Part shown: in pieces, positions 1-3,549 of the stretch
How the letters are laid out: each line of letters opens with the position of its first letter
Position numbering within the stretch: position 1 is the first letter of the stretch
Assembly (NCBI GenBank): GCA_001789515.1
Contig: MFZT01000026.1
Location: 9,283-25,918 of the forward strand
DNA from: Candidatus Roizmanbacteria bacterium RIFCSPHIGHO2_02_FULL_43_11
Lineage (GTDB): Bacteria; Patescibacteriota; Microgenomatia; UBA1406; HO2-37-13b
Length of the DNA: 16,636 bases
Direction of reading: 5' to 3'
The notes under the pieces: generated by a model
The model's database searches: none
What the model was told of the DNA's origin: nothing
Seen by the model: the letters and a program-made list of their open reading frames with translations, nothing else
Translations under genes and position numbers: made by a program

Positions 1-285
1 AGCCTGATGCTTTTTTGCCTCGACTTCTAAAAGATCAAGAACTTCTGCTGAAGGAATCGTTGTACGGGGCATGTACCCAATGGTAAAAAACGTGAATGGA
101 ATCGGGTGGAATGTGACTTGAAAAGCTGCAGTAAGGGTGTCTTGATCAAATTCACCAATGCGCATTACATCGATGCCCATTTTTTTCCGTGCTTCCCCCC
201 ATTCCCAAGCAACAAGTGGATGAGGGGCTATTTTATTCCACTGATATTGGTCAAAATCTTCTCCGACCTTTCGCACACGAGTCAT
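1..285 (-). CDS. FemX/FemAB-family peptidoglycan bridge transferase, N-terminal part (runs off the window)
   Basis: Reading the minus strand from an ATG at 285-283 gives 95 open codons to the window edge, so the C-terminal part of the gene is missing. Residues 22-35 read HPLVAWEWGEARKK, followed by GIDVMRIGEF and, at 59-73, FHPIPFTFFTIGYMP. This is the pattern seen at the start of FemAB/FemX (GNAT-like fold) proteins, which move an amino acid from an aminoacyl-tRNA onto the lipid II stem peptide at the cytoplasmic face of the membrane. An in-frame GTG at 300-298 is an alternative start; ATG is preferred because it leaves the usual ~20 residues before HPL and has AAGG just upstream. It follows uvrD by 57 nt with no terminator seen, so the two may be co-transcribed. 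The family is a motif-based recognition; the donor amino acid cannot be told. Confidence 0.72.
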   Translation of the reverse strand, partial: MTRVRKVGEDFDQYQWNKIAPHPLVAWEWGEARKKMGIDVMRIGEFDQDTLTAAFQVTFHPIPFTFFTIGYMPRTTIPSAEVLDLLEVEAKKHQA

Positions 286-342
286 ATCCTTATTATGCAC
301 TGCCCGTACACATTTCTCATCACCAAAAAGTCATCTCTTGAA

Positions 343-2121
343 TTAAGAATCCCAGATTTGATCCATGCCCACTTTATAAGCGATAAATCGTGAAACCTGG
401 CCATATCCTCCACGACCAAACAAGAAGCGTCTTTGGACATAGGTGATATATAATTTTTTCCTTGCTCTAGTTATACCAACATAGAGGAGACGTCGCTCCT
501 CCTCTAATTCATATTTATCATACAGAGACCTTGAGTGAGGTAATATACCTTCCTCAACACCGATAATAAAAACAACAGGAAATTCAAGTCCTTTTGCCTG
601 ATGCAATGTCATCATACGAACGCCAGCTTTTGTCTTTTGCAACCGTTCGTTTTCCGAGTACTCAGATTCGACAAGAGCTACTTGATGCAGAAATTCCACC
701 AAATTCTCAAATCGTAGCGCAACAGAGCGCAACTCGCGAAGATTCTCCAGCCGCGGAGCATCTTCTGGATCGTCTTTTTCATATAAATCAAGATAACCAG
801 TTTTGTTGAAAACATACTCTATACATTGATCCGTGGTTATTTCATTTTTTTGTTCTTTAATTTCTTCATAGAGCTCCTTAAAACGAGCGAATCTTCCTTT
901 ACCAAGCTTCTTTACTCGCTCCAGAGATACCTCATCTGTAGGATTCACTATGAGACGCAGATAGGCCAAAATATCTTTTATTTCCTTCCTCTCATAAAAC
1001 CGTGTCCCTCCAATAAGGACATAGGGAATACTATAGTGCAGAAATGCTTCTTCAATAGTGCGAGATTGAGCGTTCATTCTATATAAAATAGCAATATCAT
1101 CGTAATGGTATCCTTCAAACTCACATAATTTTTCGACTTCTTCTGCAATCCAGAGTGCCTCTTCTTGTTCGTTTGTAAGCTGCTTGATCGTGATATCATC
1201 GCCTTGTTCATTTTCTGTGAAGAGTTTAAGTATTGGATGAGTATCATTACCACTTATAATTTCAAACGCAAAATTCAGAACATTCTGTGTTGATCGATAG
1301 TTTTGTTCCAGATGAAAAACTTTTGTGTTAGGAAAGTCCTGCTCGAATTTTTTGAGGTTCTTTACATCTGCCCCACGCCACGAGTAAATACTTTGAGAAA
1401 AGTCACCAACAACAGTTATCCGAGAATACTTTTGCGCTAGGAGCTTTGCAAGACGATACTGCGCAGCATTAGTGTCTTGAAACTCATCAACCAAAATGTG
1501 CGTGAATGTTTCCTGATAACGATCCAGTACCCCTTGTTTCTTCTCAAACATCCAAACCGTTTTAACAATAAGGTCATCAAAATCAAGCGCATTATTTTCC
1601 TCGAGTTTTTTTTGGTATTGTCCATAGAGATCAACAATGACTTCGTCCTGTTCGGACTGAGAGAATGCTGCCAACTTTTTGGGGGACAGCATATTATCCT
1701 TTGCAGCAGATATACGATACTTTACATAACTTGGAGTGAGCTTACGATGGAACGTAACACTTTTAAGTATATTTTTAATGAGAACCTCTGTGTCATCATC
1801 ATCATAAATCACAAAATCATTACCCATTTCTATATGCACTGCATCATGGCGGAGAATACGGGCACATAGTGAATGAAATGTTCCAATAAATCCCAATTGA
1901 TGATTTACTCTTTCTGCCATCTCCCGTGCTGCTTTGTTCGTAAAAGTCATCATAGCAATATTTGATGGATCAATTTTCTTTTCCTGAATGAGATAAAGGA
2001 CCTTGTGGGTTAGTACACGTGTTTTGCCTGAACCTGCGCCTGCAAGAATGAGAGAAGGACCTTGTGTGTATTGAACAGCTTCAATTTGCCGAGGGTTAAG
2101 ATGATCAAAAAGTGAGGACAT
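343..2121 (-). CDS. uvrD: UvrD/PcrA-type superfamily 1A DNA helicase
   Basis: A 592-residue 3'-5' DNA helicase used in repair and replication-fork clearance. All SF1A motifs are present in order: Walker A AGAGSGKT (27-34), Ia TFTNKAA (59-65), Ib GTFHSLCARILR (80-91), II VDEFQDTN (211-218), III VGDFSQSIYSWRGAD (238-252), IV LEQNYRST (271-278), V MMTLHQAKGLEFPVVF (503-518), VI EERRLLYVGITRARKK (541-556). Motif III has GDFSQS where classical UvrD has GDDDQS. The protein stops about 35 residues after motif VI, so the long C-terminal extension of classical PcrA/UvrD (usually over 700 residues) is absent. An ATG three codons upstream (2130) overlaps the -10 hexamer TATAAT at 2134-2129, so the ATG at 2121 is chosen, with a leaderless mRNA. 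It lies between the tRNA unit terminator and the FemX-like gene. Confidence 0.93.
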   Translation of the reverse strand: MSSLFDHLNPRQIEAVQYTQGPSLILAGAGSGKTRVLTHKVLYLIQEKKIDPSNIAMMTFTNKAAREMAERVNHQLGFIGTFHSLCARILRHDAVHIEMGNDFVIYDDDDTEVLIKNILKSVTFHRKLTPSYVKYRISAAKDNMLSPKKLAAFSQSEQDEVIVDLYGQYQKKLEENNALDFDDLIVKTVWMFEKKQGVLDRYQETFTHILVDEFQDTNAAQYRLAKLLAQKYSRITVVGDFSQSIYSWRGADVKNLKKFEQDFPNTKVFHLEQNYRSTQNVLNFAFEIISGNDTHPILKLFTENEQGDDITIKQLTNEQEEALWIAEEVEKLCEFEGYHYDDIAILYRMNAQSRTIEEAFLHYSIPYVLIGGTRFYERKEIKDILAYLRLIVNPTDEVSLERVKKLGKGRFARFKELYEEIKEQKNEITTDQCIEYVFNKTGYLDLYEKDDPEDAPRLENLRELRSVALRFENLVEFLHQVALVESEYSENERLQKTKAGVRMMTLHQAKGLEFPVVFIIGVEEGILPHSRSLYDKYELEEERRLLYVGITRARKKLYITYVQRRFLFGRGGYGQVSRFIAYKVGMDQIWDS

Positions 2122-2128
2122 GGGAACC

Positions 2129-2134
2129 ATTATA
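2129..2134 (-). promoter_or_regulatory. -10 box of uvrD promoter (TATAAT)
   Basis: The minus strand reads TATAAT followed by 7 nt and the uvrD ATG at 2121. Transcription would start at or next to the A of the start codon. The -35 region 17-18 bp upstream (TTCATG) is a weak match. The box overlaps the first possible ATG (2130), which argues against that start. Confidence 0.6.
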
Positions 2135-2173: not shown

Positions 2174-2215
2174 AAAAAAGCGTTGCCGGCCCCCTGTGAC
2201 GATCTGGGGACCGGC
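2174..2215 (-). terminator. Intrinsic terminator of the tRNA unit
   Basis: On the minus strand a 10-bp GC-rich stem, GCCGGTCCCC (2215-2206) against GGGGGCCGGC (2194-2185), has one C-A mismatch and an 11-nt loop. After 5 nt it is followed by six T (2179-2174). This suits termination of the tRNA transcript ahead of the uvrD promoter. The 5-nt gap before the T run is slightly long. Confidence 0.7.
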
Positions 2216-2278: not shown

Positions 2279-2354
2279 GGGTCGCAGCAGGATTTGCACC
2301 TGCACCTCTCCGCCTACTGCGGAGCGCTCTTTCCGACAATGAGCTATGCGACCC
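2279..2354 (-). tRNA. Aberrant tRNA-like gene: His-type acceptor, GTA in the anticodon position
   Basis: Minus-strand cloverleaf: acceptor GGTCGCA/TGCGACC, with an extra 5' G (2354) opposite discriminator C (2279), the G-1:C73 pair typical of tRNA-His. Then TA, D stem GCTC/GAGC, anticodon stem CTCCG/CGGAG with 7-nt loop CAGTAGG, a 4-nt variable region, and T stem GCAGG/CCTGC with loop TGCAAAT. By position the anticodon is GTA (Tyr), but bacterial tRNA-Tyr has a long variable arm, which this lacks. Two near-invariant bases are wrong: position 33 is A rather than U, and position 55 is G rather than U, which should break the G18-psi55 elbow contact. CCA is not encoded. It is last in a four-gene tRNA unit. 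It may be a degenerate tRNA-His or a tRNA with a non-translational role; charging identity is not assignable. Confidence 0.55.
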
Positions 2355-2357
2355 GCA

Positions 2358-2429
2358 TGCAGCCGCCAGGACTTGAACCTGGAACCTACCCCGTGTGAGG
2401 GGGGTGCTCTACCATTGAGCTACGGCTGC
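2358..2429 (-). tRNA. tRNA-Val (CAC)
   Basis: Minus-strand cloverleaf: acceptor GCAGCCG/CGGCTGC, TA, D stem GCTC/GAGC with loop AATGGTA (G18G19 present), anticodon stem CCCCC/GGGGT (outermost pair mismatched), loop CTCACAC giving anticodon CAC, variable AGGTT, T stem CCAGG/CCTGG with loop TTCAAGT, discriminator A. CCA is not encoded. It is the only member of the cluster with all conserved loop bases. Spacers to its neighbours are only 3-4 nt, so processing must be from a common precursor. Confidence 0.88.
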
Positions 2430-2433
2430 CGGA

Positions 2434-2505
2434 TGCCCCCGCCAGGACTTGAACCTGGAACCTTCTGGCTCCGAACCAGACGCTCTTACATTGAGCTACG
2501 GGGAC
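2434..2505 (-). tRNA. tRNA-Pro (CGG) by position, or Arg-like; G19 lost
   Basis: Minus-strand cloverleaf: acceptor GTCCCCG/CGGGGGC (one T-G pair), D stem GCTC/GAGC, anticodon stem TCTGG/CCAGA, loop TTCGGAG, variable AGGTT, T stem CCAGG/CCTGG with loop TTCAAGT, discriminator A; no encoded CCA. Standard geometry gives U33 and anticodon CGG (Pro). However, position 37 is A (tRNA-Pro normally has G37) and the 1:72 pair is G:C, while bacterial tRNA-Pro normally has C:G. The body looks more like tRNA-Arg, and a one-base shift would read TCG (Arg). The D loop is AATGTAA, so T replaces G19 and the conserved G19-C56 tertiary pair is lost. Amino acid identity is therefore left open. Confidence 0.7.
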
Positions 2506-2512
2506 CCCGAAA

Positions 2513-2594
2513 AGCGGGCGACGAGACTCGAACTCGTAACCTCCATGCCAACTGTGATGATAGCATGGCGCTCTGCCAACTGAGCTACGCCCGC
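2513..2594 (-). tRNA. tRNA-Gly-like gene with an expanded 16-nt anticodon loop
   Basis: First gene of the tRNA unit. Minus strand: acceptor GCGGGCG/CGCCCGC, TA, D stem GCTC/GAGC with loop AGTTGGCA, variable AGGTT, T stem ACGAG/CTCGT with loop TTCGAGT, discriminator T. The G1:C72, C2:G71 and U73 set is that of bacterial tRNA-Gly. The anticodon arm is abnormal: CCATG and CATGG are separated by 16 nt (CTATCATCACAGTTGG) instead of 7. It can close further to an 8-bp stem with a 10-nt loop. No Gly anticodon (NCC) occurs in the loop. Removing 9 nt in several ways would restore a 7-nt loop (for example GTT, Asn), but no bacterial mechanism for such a small intron is evident. CCA is not encoded. It may be a non-decoding tRNA or carry a tiny intron. 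Confidence 0.6.
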
Positions 2595-2619: not shown

Positions 2620-2648
2620 ATTGTAGCAAAGAGGTTTGGGTAATGCAA
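2620..2648 (-). promoter_or_regulatory. Promoter of the four-gene tRNA unit
   Basis: On the minus strand TTGCAT (2648-2643), 17 bp, then TACAAT (2625-2620). The -10 box ends 25 nt before the first tRNA-like gene at 2594. It is a good sigma70-type match facing the tRNA cluster. Confidence 0.7.
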
Positions 2649-2670: not shown

Positions 2671-2840
2671 TAGAGGGATAGAAGAATAGGGAGGTGATGT
2701 ATGTTTAGGACTGAAAGTTATTTCAGAACCCTAACCTCCCCACCCCCTCCACGCTCTTCACCCCTCTACACTTCTATCCCCCTATCCTTCTATCCCTCCA
2801 TCCATCTGTCCCTCTATCCCTCTATCCCTCTATCCCTCTA
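2671..2840. repeat. Octamer tandem repeat (TCCCTCTA) with an inverted partner
   Basis: Four perfect copies of TCCCTCTA run from 2809 to 2840, preceded by degenerate copies from about 2770. The exact reverse complement TAGAGGGA stands at 2671-2678. The longest perfect inverted match is 12 bp: GAGGGATAGAAG (2673-2684) against CTTCTATCCCTC (2787-2798). Between the arms CTGAAA-GTTA-TTTCAG (2710-2725) forms a small hairpin. The block is pyrimidine-rich on the plus strand, contains no convincing gene and separates the divergent tRNA and tpiA promoters. Confidence 0.75.
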
Positions 2841-2851
2841 TATCTTCCACC

Positions 2852-2889: not shown

Positions 2890-3549
2890 ATGAAATATGT
2901 GATTGGGAATTGGAAAGCGTATAAAAGCTTCTCCGAAGTTCAGGAATGGCTTAATACTTTTACTGCTCACGATCTTGCGTCCATCCCACAAAGCCTTAAG
3001 GTTATTCTCTGTCCTCCAGCGCCTTTCCTGCACATGTGCGCAGAGAAGCTTCATCAATATAATATATCTATTGGCTCACAGGATATTTCTCAGTTTGAGA
3101 TTGGTCCGGTTACTGGTGAAGTGACGGGCACACAGCTTGATGGACTGGCAGAATATGTCATTATTGGGCACAGTGAGCGTCGCCAGTATTTTCATGAAAA
3201 TGATGAAGTTTTGTCAGCAAAAGTCAGAAGTGCACTTCATCATGGGCTTAAGGTGATTTTTTGCATAGATGGAGCTTCGGATTTTATCCCGGAGGGTGTA
3301 ACCATGGTTGTATATGAGCCTATTGATGCCATTGGGACTGGTCGTAATGCAACAGTTGATAGTGTTATGCAGATGAAGTCACAATTAACACATCTGCCAC
3401 ATTGCCTGTATATTTACGGCGGTTCTGTAGATTCGAGTAATGTGACCATGTATATGCAGCATGACAGTATTGATGGGGTTTTGCCAGGAACTGCAGCACT
3501 TAATCCTCAGGAGTTTTATGAGCTTATTCAAGAAAGCCTAATTTCCTAA
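2890..3549 (+). CDS. tpiA: Triosephosphate isomerase, compact form
   Basis: Interconverts dihydroxyacetone phosphate and glyceraldehyde 3-phosphate in glycolysis. The 219 residues carry the family signatures: NWK (N7, K9), GSQDIS (62-67), TGEVTGTQL (75-83), IIGHSERRQ with catalytic His94, YEPIDAIGTG with catalytic Glu143 and phosphate-gripping loop 6 (142-151), YGGSV (176-180) and LPGTAAL (198-204). The usual bacterial enzyme has about 250 residues; the loss lies mainly around residues 124-136, where CVGE and the following helix are replaced by FCIDGASDFIPEG. Loop 6 has D146 where Trp is usual. Short length is otherwise typical of archaeal enzymes. The frame stays open upstream to 2701, but that part is low-complexity repeat; the ATG at 2890 puts NWK at its normal place and fits the promoter. 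It converges on the 3562-4275 gene with 12 nt between stops. Confidence 0.93.
   Translation: MKYVIGNWKAYKSFSEVQEWLNTFTAHDLASIPQSLKVILCPPAPFLHMCAEKLHQYNISIGSQDISQFEIGPVTGEVTGTQLDGLAEYVIIGHSERRQYFHENDEVLSAKVRSALHHGLKVIFCIDGASDFIPEGVTMVVYEPIDAIGTGRNATVDSVMQMKSQLTHLPHCLYIYGGSVDSSNVTMYMQHDSIDGVLPGTAALNPQEFYELIQESLIS

Follow-up and report, generated by a model that had tools for sequence, protein, structure and literature searches.

What might a bacterium do with a tRNA that appears unable to read a codon? The question is raised by glyX, an 82-nt tRNA-Gly-like gene at 2513..2594 (minus strand) of the window, by which we mean the whole 16,636-nt stretch of Candidatus Roizmanbacteria DNA analyzed here. 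An earlier note had placed such a gene at exactly these coordinates, and the tRNA model RF00005 matches it end to end (57.4 bits, E 2.4e-10, model positions 1-71, 2594-2513 on the minus strand). Like a decoding tRNA-Gly, glyX has a cloverleaf with intact acceptor, D and T arms, G1:C72, C2:G71, and U73, all of which the note had listed and all of which are seen in the sequence; what it lacks is the 7-nt anticodon loop with an NCC triplet. In that place stands a replaced anticodon arm (2543..2568, minus strand; from the fold and alignment with Gly tRNAs), whose 5-bp stem, CCAUG/CAUGG, encloses the 16-nt loop CUAUCAUCACAGUUGG (2548..2563, minus strand), again as had been described. In the RNAfold structure, a full cloverleaf of -36.1 kcal/mol that none of 200 shuffles equalled (z -3.24), this stem lengthens to 8 bp and closes a loop of 10 nt, which contains a single lone pair. 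Because the loop contains no CC, glyX has no Gly anticodon. ARAGORN returns tRNA-Asp(atc), which we take to be a forced reading of the long loop. CCA is not encoded by the gene.

The genome (708,812 bp in 51 contigs, 87% complete) holds 43 matches to the tRNA model, 4 of them in the window, and ARAGORN finds 39 distinct tRNAs outside it (40 listed, one Ser gene appearing twice where fetched stretches overlap). Three of these are ordinary tRNA-Gly genes—Gly-GCC, Gly-UCC, and Gly-CCC, on other contigs—and glyX is therefore surplus. The prediction that it should not decode Gly codons is thus backed both by its sequence and by its redundancy with three ordinary genes, and we regard glyX as very probably surplus and non-decoding. 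Among the other 39 tRNAs of this 87%-complete genome ARAGORN finds no tRNA-Asn or tRNA-Cys and only one Met-CAT, in line with incompleteness of the assembly. A tRNA recoding UGA to Gly was considered and rejected: the loop has UCA, yet the long window ORFs read normally under table 11.

The earlier note had missed that glyX opens an array of four tRNA genes, which runs on the minus strand as glyX, a Pro-CGG-like gene, a Val-CAC-like gene, a fourth tRNA-like gene, and a structured tail. The tRNA-Pro(CGG)-like gene (2434..2505) and the tRNA-Val(CAC)-like gene (2358..2429), both on the minus strand and both found by RF00005 and ARAGORN, are each the second of their kind in the genome and have a T arm in common; the former shows G1:C72 and a D loop without GG, and the latter one mismatched anticodon-stem pair and otherwise no clear defect. 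The fourth gene (2279..2353, minus strand; RF00005 48.6 bits, no ARAGORN call) carries GUA in the anticodon position, A33, and a G in place of U55; the ordinary Tyr gene of the genome is 84 nt long. The G1:C72 and GG-less D loop of the Pro-like gene, and A33 and G55 of the fourth, lie at positions that we take to impair translation, and judged by sequence two of the three array mates of glyX also look unfit for it. Pro-TGG, Pro-CGG, Val-TAC, Val-GAC, Val-CAC, and Tyr-GTA are likewise among the 39 other tRNAs, so that no nominal specificity of the array is needed. Two window ORFs, 2346-2681 and 2386-2607, cross the array, one on each strand, and are probably spurious.

A weak promoter-like element, TTGCAT-17-TACAAT, lies 25 nt before glyX (2620..2648, minus strand), with a sigma-70 score of 8/12 (shuffle P 0.39); the median of 38 other tRNA genes in the genome is also 8. 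At the other end, a terminator-like hairpin followed by a U-run (2174..2215, minus strand; from the fold of 2160-2279) would mark the end of the array transcript. A promoter and terminator scan around the array called none, the hairpin being missed because neither its 11-nt loop nor its distance from the U-run falls within the limits of the scan. The fold of 2160-2279 has an energy of -54.0 kcal/mol (z -5.54). Such strong structure in the stretch that separates the fourth tRNA from uvrD may reflect something beyond a terminator.

The array is flanked downstream by a uvrD/pcrA-type helicase gene (343..2130, minus strand; PF00580, PF13361) and on its other side by tpiA (2890..3549, plus strand; PF00121), with uvrD and tpiA start codons about 760 bp apart. 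In six of seven family relatives the two genes stand head to head, their matched segments ranging from 6 bases overlapping to 50 apart, and an Rfam scan of these six tpiA loci matched no family, hence no tRNA in the gap. Neither uvrD nor tpiA had a match in the seventh, the sole congeneric relative. Absence of the locus from related strains, which the earlier note had named as a refutation, was accordingly found at family level, in six of seven genomes. From these comparisons it would appear that this lineage acquired the four-gene array as an insertion between uvrD and tpiA. A covariance model built on glyX gives its own source gene 116.1 bits; when 83 genomes of the order, this one included, were searched under strict filters, nothing besides glyX exceeded 69.9 bits among the matches listed, the others all being at most 75 nt, ordinary tRNA length. 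An 8-bp tandem repeat, CCCTCTAT, occupies 2762..2841 between the array and tpiA (repeat scan). Three other contigs of the genome have arrays similar to this repeat. In a named collection that may omit this genome, the UvrD proteins closest to the present one, 58% and 55% identical, are those of Candidatus Roizmanbacteria, a group placed by NCBI taxonomy within the Microgenomates group of Patescibacteria; the 80 named loci examined there served solely to name these relatives.

Our preference, a tentative one, is for a role of glyX outside the ribosome, as a surplus, non-decoding tRNA. Almost as likely is that the array is a relic: an imported or duplicated, unneeded, and drifting set of tRNAs, in which replication slippage or recombination gave glyX its loop hairpin and the body has not yet decayed. 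An insertion unseen in six of seven family relatives speaks for a relic, and each array member is redundant or odd, low-complexity repeats adjoin the array, and the glyX model found no second strong match among those listed for the order. What a relic explains less readily is the body of the gene. Outside the anticodon arm glyX differs from the genome's own Gly-UCC at 6 of 56 positions, and after these six substitutions 16 of 16 body pairs remain standard, with a neutral P of 0.023 that assumes all changes fell on the glyX side; in the alignment, every one of the four Gly genes has 21 standard pairs out of 21. Conservation of the body had been offered as an argument against simple decay: the pairs are indeed all kept, though at this P they favor a maintained fold only modestly. 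The anticodon stem, too, is fully paired, even though all five of its pairs differ on both sides from those of the genome's own Gly tRNAs, yet a single arm-replacement event would look identical.

How might glyX act outside the ribosome? In the scheme that we prefer, a tRNA-Gly body would have gained a longer hairpin in place of its anticodon arm, and the resulting glyX would probably be transcribed together with the array, after which RNase P and RNase Z would trim it and CCA would be added, as with other tRNAs. Charged with glycine, the mature molecule would escape the ribosome for want of an anticodon, and could feed the FemAB-family ligase encoded two genes downstream, by analogy with the passage of Gly-tRNA to FemX. 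Glycine donation to this ligase is the likeliest specific mechanism and, taken alone, an unlikely one. A carrier tRNA for non-ribosomal use was among the suggestions of the earlier note, and the FemAB-family gene downstream and A49-U65 lend it circumstantial support. For the broader role speak the combination of an intact body with a replaced arm, the redundancy, the kept Gly pairs, A49-U65 in the T stem, the FemAB-family ORF nearby, the impaired array mates, and genes of similar form in the class, surplus in the three genomes whose tRNA sets were read; against it stand the array-free gap in six of seven relatives, the weak consensus promoter, and a FemX score far from its cut-off.

The ligase gene itself, of a family that uses charged tRNAs in building the cell wall, runs off the window: its 5' part lies at 1..300 (minus strand; PF02388 and a PDB match) and it continues on the contig (G000:C26:8572-9582) as an ORF of 336 codons, on the same strand and 42 nt after uvrD. 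PF02388 matches the full ORF with 110.7 bits, and Pfam found no match in the 100-residue window piece alone. The best PDB match is 6snr_A, a lipid II:glycine glycyltransferase (E 1.6e-14), followed by FemA 1lrz_A; the NCBIfam FemX equivalog gives 25.1 bits against a cut-off of 500. PF02388 was found in seven of the eight family genomes, and in five relatives without the array its match lies at most 600 bp from that of uvrD (a sixth has them on separate contigs), so the neighborhood is independent of the array and the proximity perhaps due to chance. Bacterial GlyRS usually reads C35 and C36, which makes glycine charging of glyX doubtful. Around five of six other class genes of similar form, FemAB was absent from 10 neighbor proteins, and FemAB as a general partner of long-arm tRNA-like genes was rejected on that ground. 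A search of the open-access literature on FemAB together with the Candidate Phyla Radiation, peptidoglycan, and tRNA found no paper.

Known systems offer partial parallels. The non-proteinogenic tRNA-Gly species of S. aureus, donors for FemX, FemA, and FemB, resemble glyX in being surplus tRNA-Gly bodies with A49-U65, where the genome's own Gly tRNAs have G49-U65; according to PMC4052509, this T-stem change is among those tied to weak EF-Tu binding. The same paper describes these carriers as altered also at 18-19 and 51-63, whereas glyX retains G18 G19 and G51-C63 rather than showing replacement of G18 G19 and A51-U63. The S. aureus system also has its FemAB-family gene in the genome, and a FemABX-type ligase is here present by sequence family only, two genes downstream; unlike the carriers, glyX has no Gly anticodon. 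Another chromosomal tRNA look-alike thought to be non-translational is the Bacillus cereus pseudo-tRNA tRNA-Other, which, according to PMC3399842, has a Trp anticodon and forms part of a larger RNA, in contrast to glyX with no usable anticodon. Phage and chromosomal tRNA arrays are likewise short, co-oriented, redundant, and odd, although a Pfam scan of 10 window proteins detected no mobile or phage gene. The tRNA fragments left by integrating elements are, as described in PMC9897764, non-canonical and redundant as glyX is, yet glyX is complete at both ends and abnormal in its anticodon arm only. Only a small group of tRNAs is known to be released from decoding. A bacterial tRNA without an anticodon arm but with an intact body would be a natural split of the amino-acid-carrying half from the codon-reading half, and if charged, glyX would be a tRNA dedicated to non-ribosomal use in a small-genome bacterium.

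Genes of similar form are also encountered in viruses. A stretched-centre pattern was matched by at least 120 stretches of viral contigs; the complement pattern, serving as a composition-matched control, gave 7 in the whole viral collection. Of the 120 viral matches examined, all with full flanks, 101 have a tRNA body, defined by 6 or more of 7 acceptor pairs and 4 or more of 5 T-stem pairs, a threshold that 12 of 6000 random placements pass. A normal arm with a 7-nt loop is fully paired in 10 of these and has 4 of 5 pairs in 18 more; in the remaining 73 (65 distinct) it has no more than 3 of 5 pairs, and 49 of the 73 have an arm of stretched form in which 4 or more of 5 pairs are made, compared with 15% of shuffled centres. 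CCA is encoded after the discriminator in 15 of the 65 distinct genes, where 1.0 would be expected. In one viral family of four (L302, L308, L310, L332), a constant GCAAGGACGCTT centre replaces the anticodon between covarying stems; in L332 the gene lies one small ORF after the major head protein gene, and its neighbors in L308 gave no named match. A second family (L236, L253, L296, L249, L321, L330, L222) has a centre like CTACCCGGGTTCTGATAC. The member in L236 lies near a 604-aa integrase gene. When members of six viral families were compared with named phages, four had no match, one had a 62-base match to a Gordonia phage gene annotated as tRNA-Leu, and the last had matches in six records, 72-73 bases long in five, which is ordinary tRNA length.

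These counts suggest that replacement of the anticodon arm in a tRNA body is no rarity among viral contigs. Such genes are easily overlooked, as a finder may assign an arbitrary or undetermined anticodon, just as ARAGORN does for glyX. Titles and abstract openings from the open-access literature on anticodon-less, extended-loop, and odd tRNAs, in phages and the Candidate Phyla Radiation, described no such genes among the matches listed. The likeness of the viral genes, and of those in the class described below, to glyX is one of form, and common descent is not claimed. No viral match was obtained with any of four signature patterns, exact or near-exact, and a search of the phage collection returned 434 records with tRNA-like similarity only, below 90%; on both counts a direct viral origin was judged unsupported, although the array may have distant viral homologues.

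The viral genes also bear on the idea that glyX is a structural or regulatory RNA, using the tRNA fold only for stability, RNase P/Z processing, or protein binding, with the arm serving as a hairpin cap or antisense loop and no amino acid attached. Viral genes of similar form often have hairpins at this place together with diverse acceptor ends, the constant loop and covarying stems of the family of four would suit such a use, and tRNA-Other, according to PMC3399842, sets a precedent as part of a larger RNA. Set against this, glyX keeps its Gly acceptor identity. With up to 3 mismatches allowed, the window contains 5 sites for the loop complement, its own counted, against an expectation of 1.89; at least 5 were also found with 7 of 200 shuffles, and an antisense target within the window was rejected as not convincing. 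Overall, we judge a purely structural or regulatory use to be a distinctly minor prospect.

Far less probable still is an intron of 9 nt, whose best excision would leave a 7-nt loop, CUGUUGG, with an Asn-type GUU, making glyX an interrupted tRNA-Asn. One excision does yield U33-GUU, Asn is absent from the other 39 tRNAs, and in another genome of the class, G381, the loop of an Asn-like gene is longer by 15 nt; yet that genome carries an ordinary tRNA-Asn beside it, and the present one, at 87% complete, is also without Cys and has only one Met tRNA. The body of glyX, moreover, is that of a Gly tRNA with U73, and tRNA-Asn uses G73. The earlier note had proposed a tiny intron and held that glyX should not decode Gly unless 9 nt are removed, but every contiguous excision that leaves a 7-nt loop reads GUU, AUU, or AUC, never NCC, so that removal of nine bases never restores a Gly anticodon. 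The splicing endonuclease domain PF01974 is absent from all eight family genomes, including this 87%-complete one; among 14 control genomes, the 4 archaeal ones matched. In both enzyme and product glyX departs from the small-intron tRNAs of archaea and eukaryotes, with which it shares extra anticodon-loop bases. A group I intron was rejected, the extra 9 nt being no ribozyme-sized insert and Rfam scans showing no intron family. That glyX is an ordinary tRNA-Gly wrongly sequenced or assembled would be compatible with a fragmented source assembly but is scarcely credible, as the added bases lengthen the stem and the whole stem differs from those of the three ordinary Gly tRNAs, each of them encoded separately on another contig.

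Returning to a non-ribosomal role, it is conceivable that glyX belongs to a broad, unrecognized kind of gene in phages and Microgenomates: hairpin-capped, CCA-ended tRNA bodies without an anticodon, working via the body alone and here donating glycine to a FemX-like cell-wall ligase. We hold this wider proposal to be quite improbable. Within the class, a class I tRNA pattern with a stretched centre matched in 10 of 372 genomes, and inspection found an abnormal anticodon arm in seven (this genome, G381, G344, G315, G393, G015, and G349), a normal loop with a long variable region in two (G282, G326), and a match containing N in the last (G179). The G349 gene has a weak T stem, with 3 of 5 pairs, and scores 36.4 bits. 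In the phylum sample, a narrower pattern (at least 33 instead of 30 central bases, which would catch 5 of the 7 class cases) matched 2 of 380 genomes, namely this one and one with a normal loop by eye. Inspection of the whole tRNA set of G381, G344, and G315 showed a broad ordinary set besides the odd gene in each. The Asn-like gene of G381 (L212 1489-1576) has a 22-nt anticodon loop that starts as a normal Asn loop does.

The odd genes of G344, G315, and G349 all lie upstream of ruvC, in genomes of one family, 49 of whose 50 genomes have a RuvC match. Of 30 ruvC loci fetched from that family, 8 have tRNA matches alongside, and 6 of these 8 include at least one tRNA whose anticodon geometry is abnormal by ARAGORN or RNAfold. 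The ruvC-side loci and the others in the class are not orthologous to glyX. Sigma-70 scoring of 13 array and relative genes gave 11/12 for G344, 12/12 for the Asp-like gene of G381, and 11/12 for G315 (shuffle P 0.002, 0.002, and 0.006), with P at least 0.048 for the remaining 10. Among the tRNA-like genes upstream of ruvC, most with abnormal anticodon arms, are L379 1287-1365, L381 1235-1311, L387 763-843, and L392 1323-1393, and further ones are found at L395 2522-2607, L400 2384-2453, and L406 2221-2297. Sigma-70 promoter matches of 11-12/12 precede those of L379, L381, and L395.
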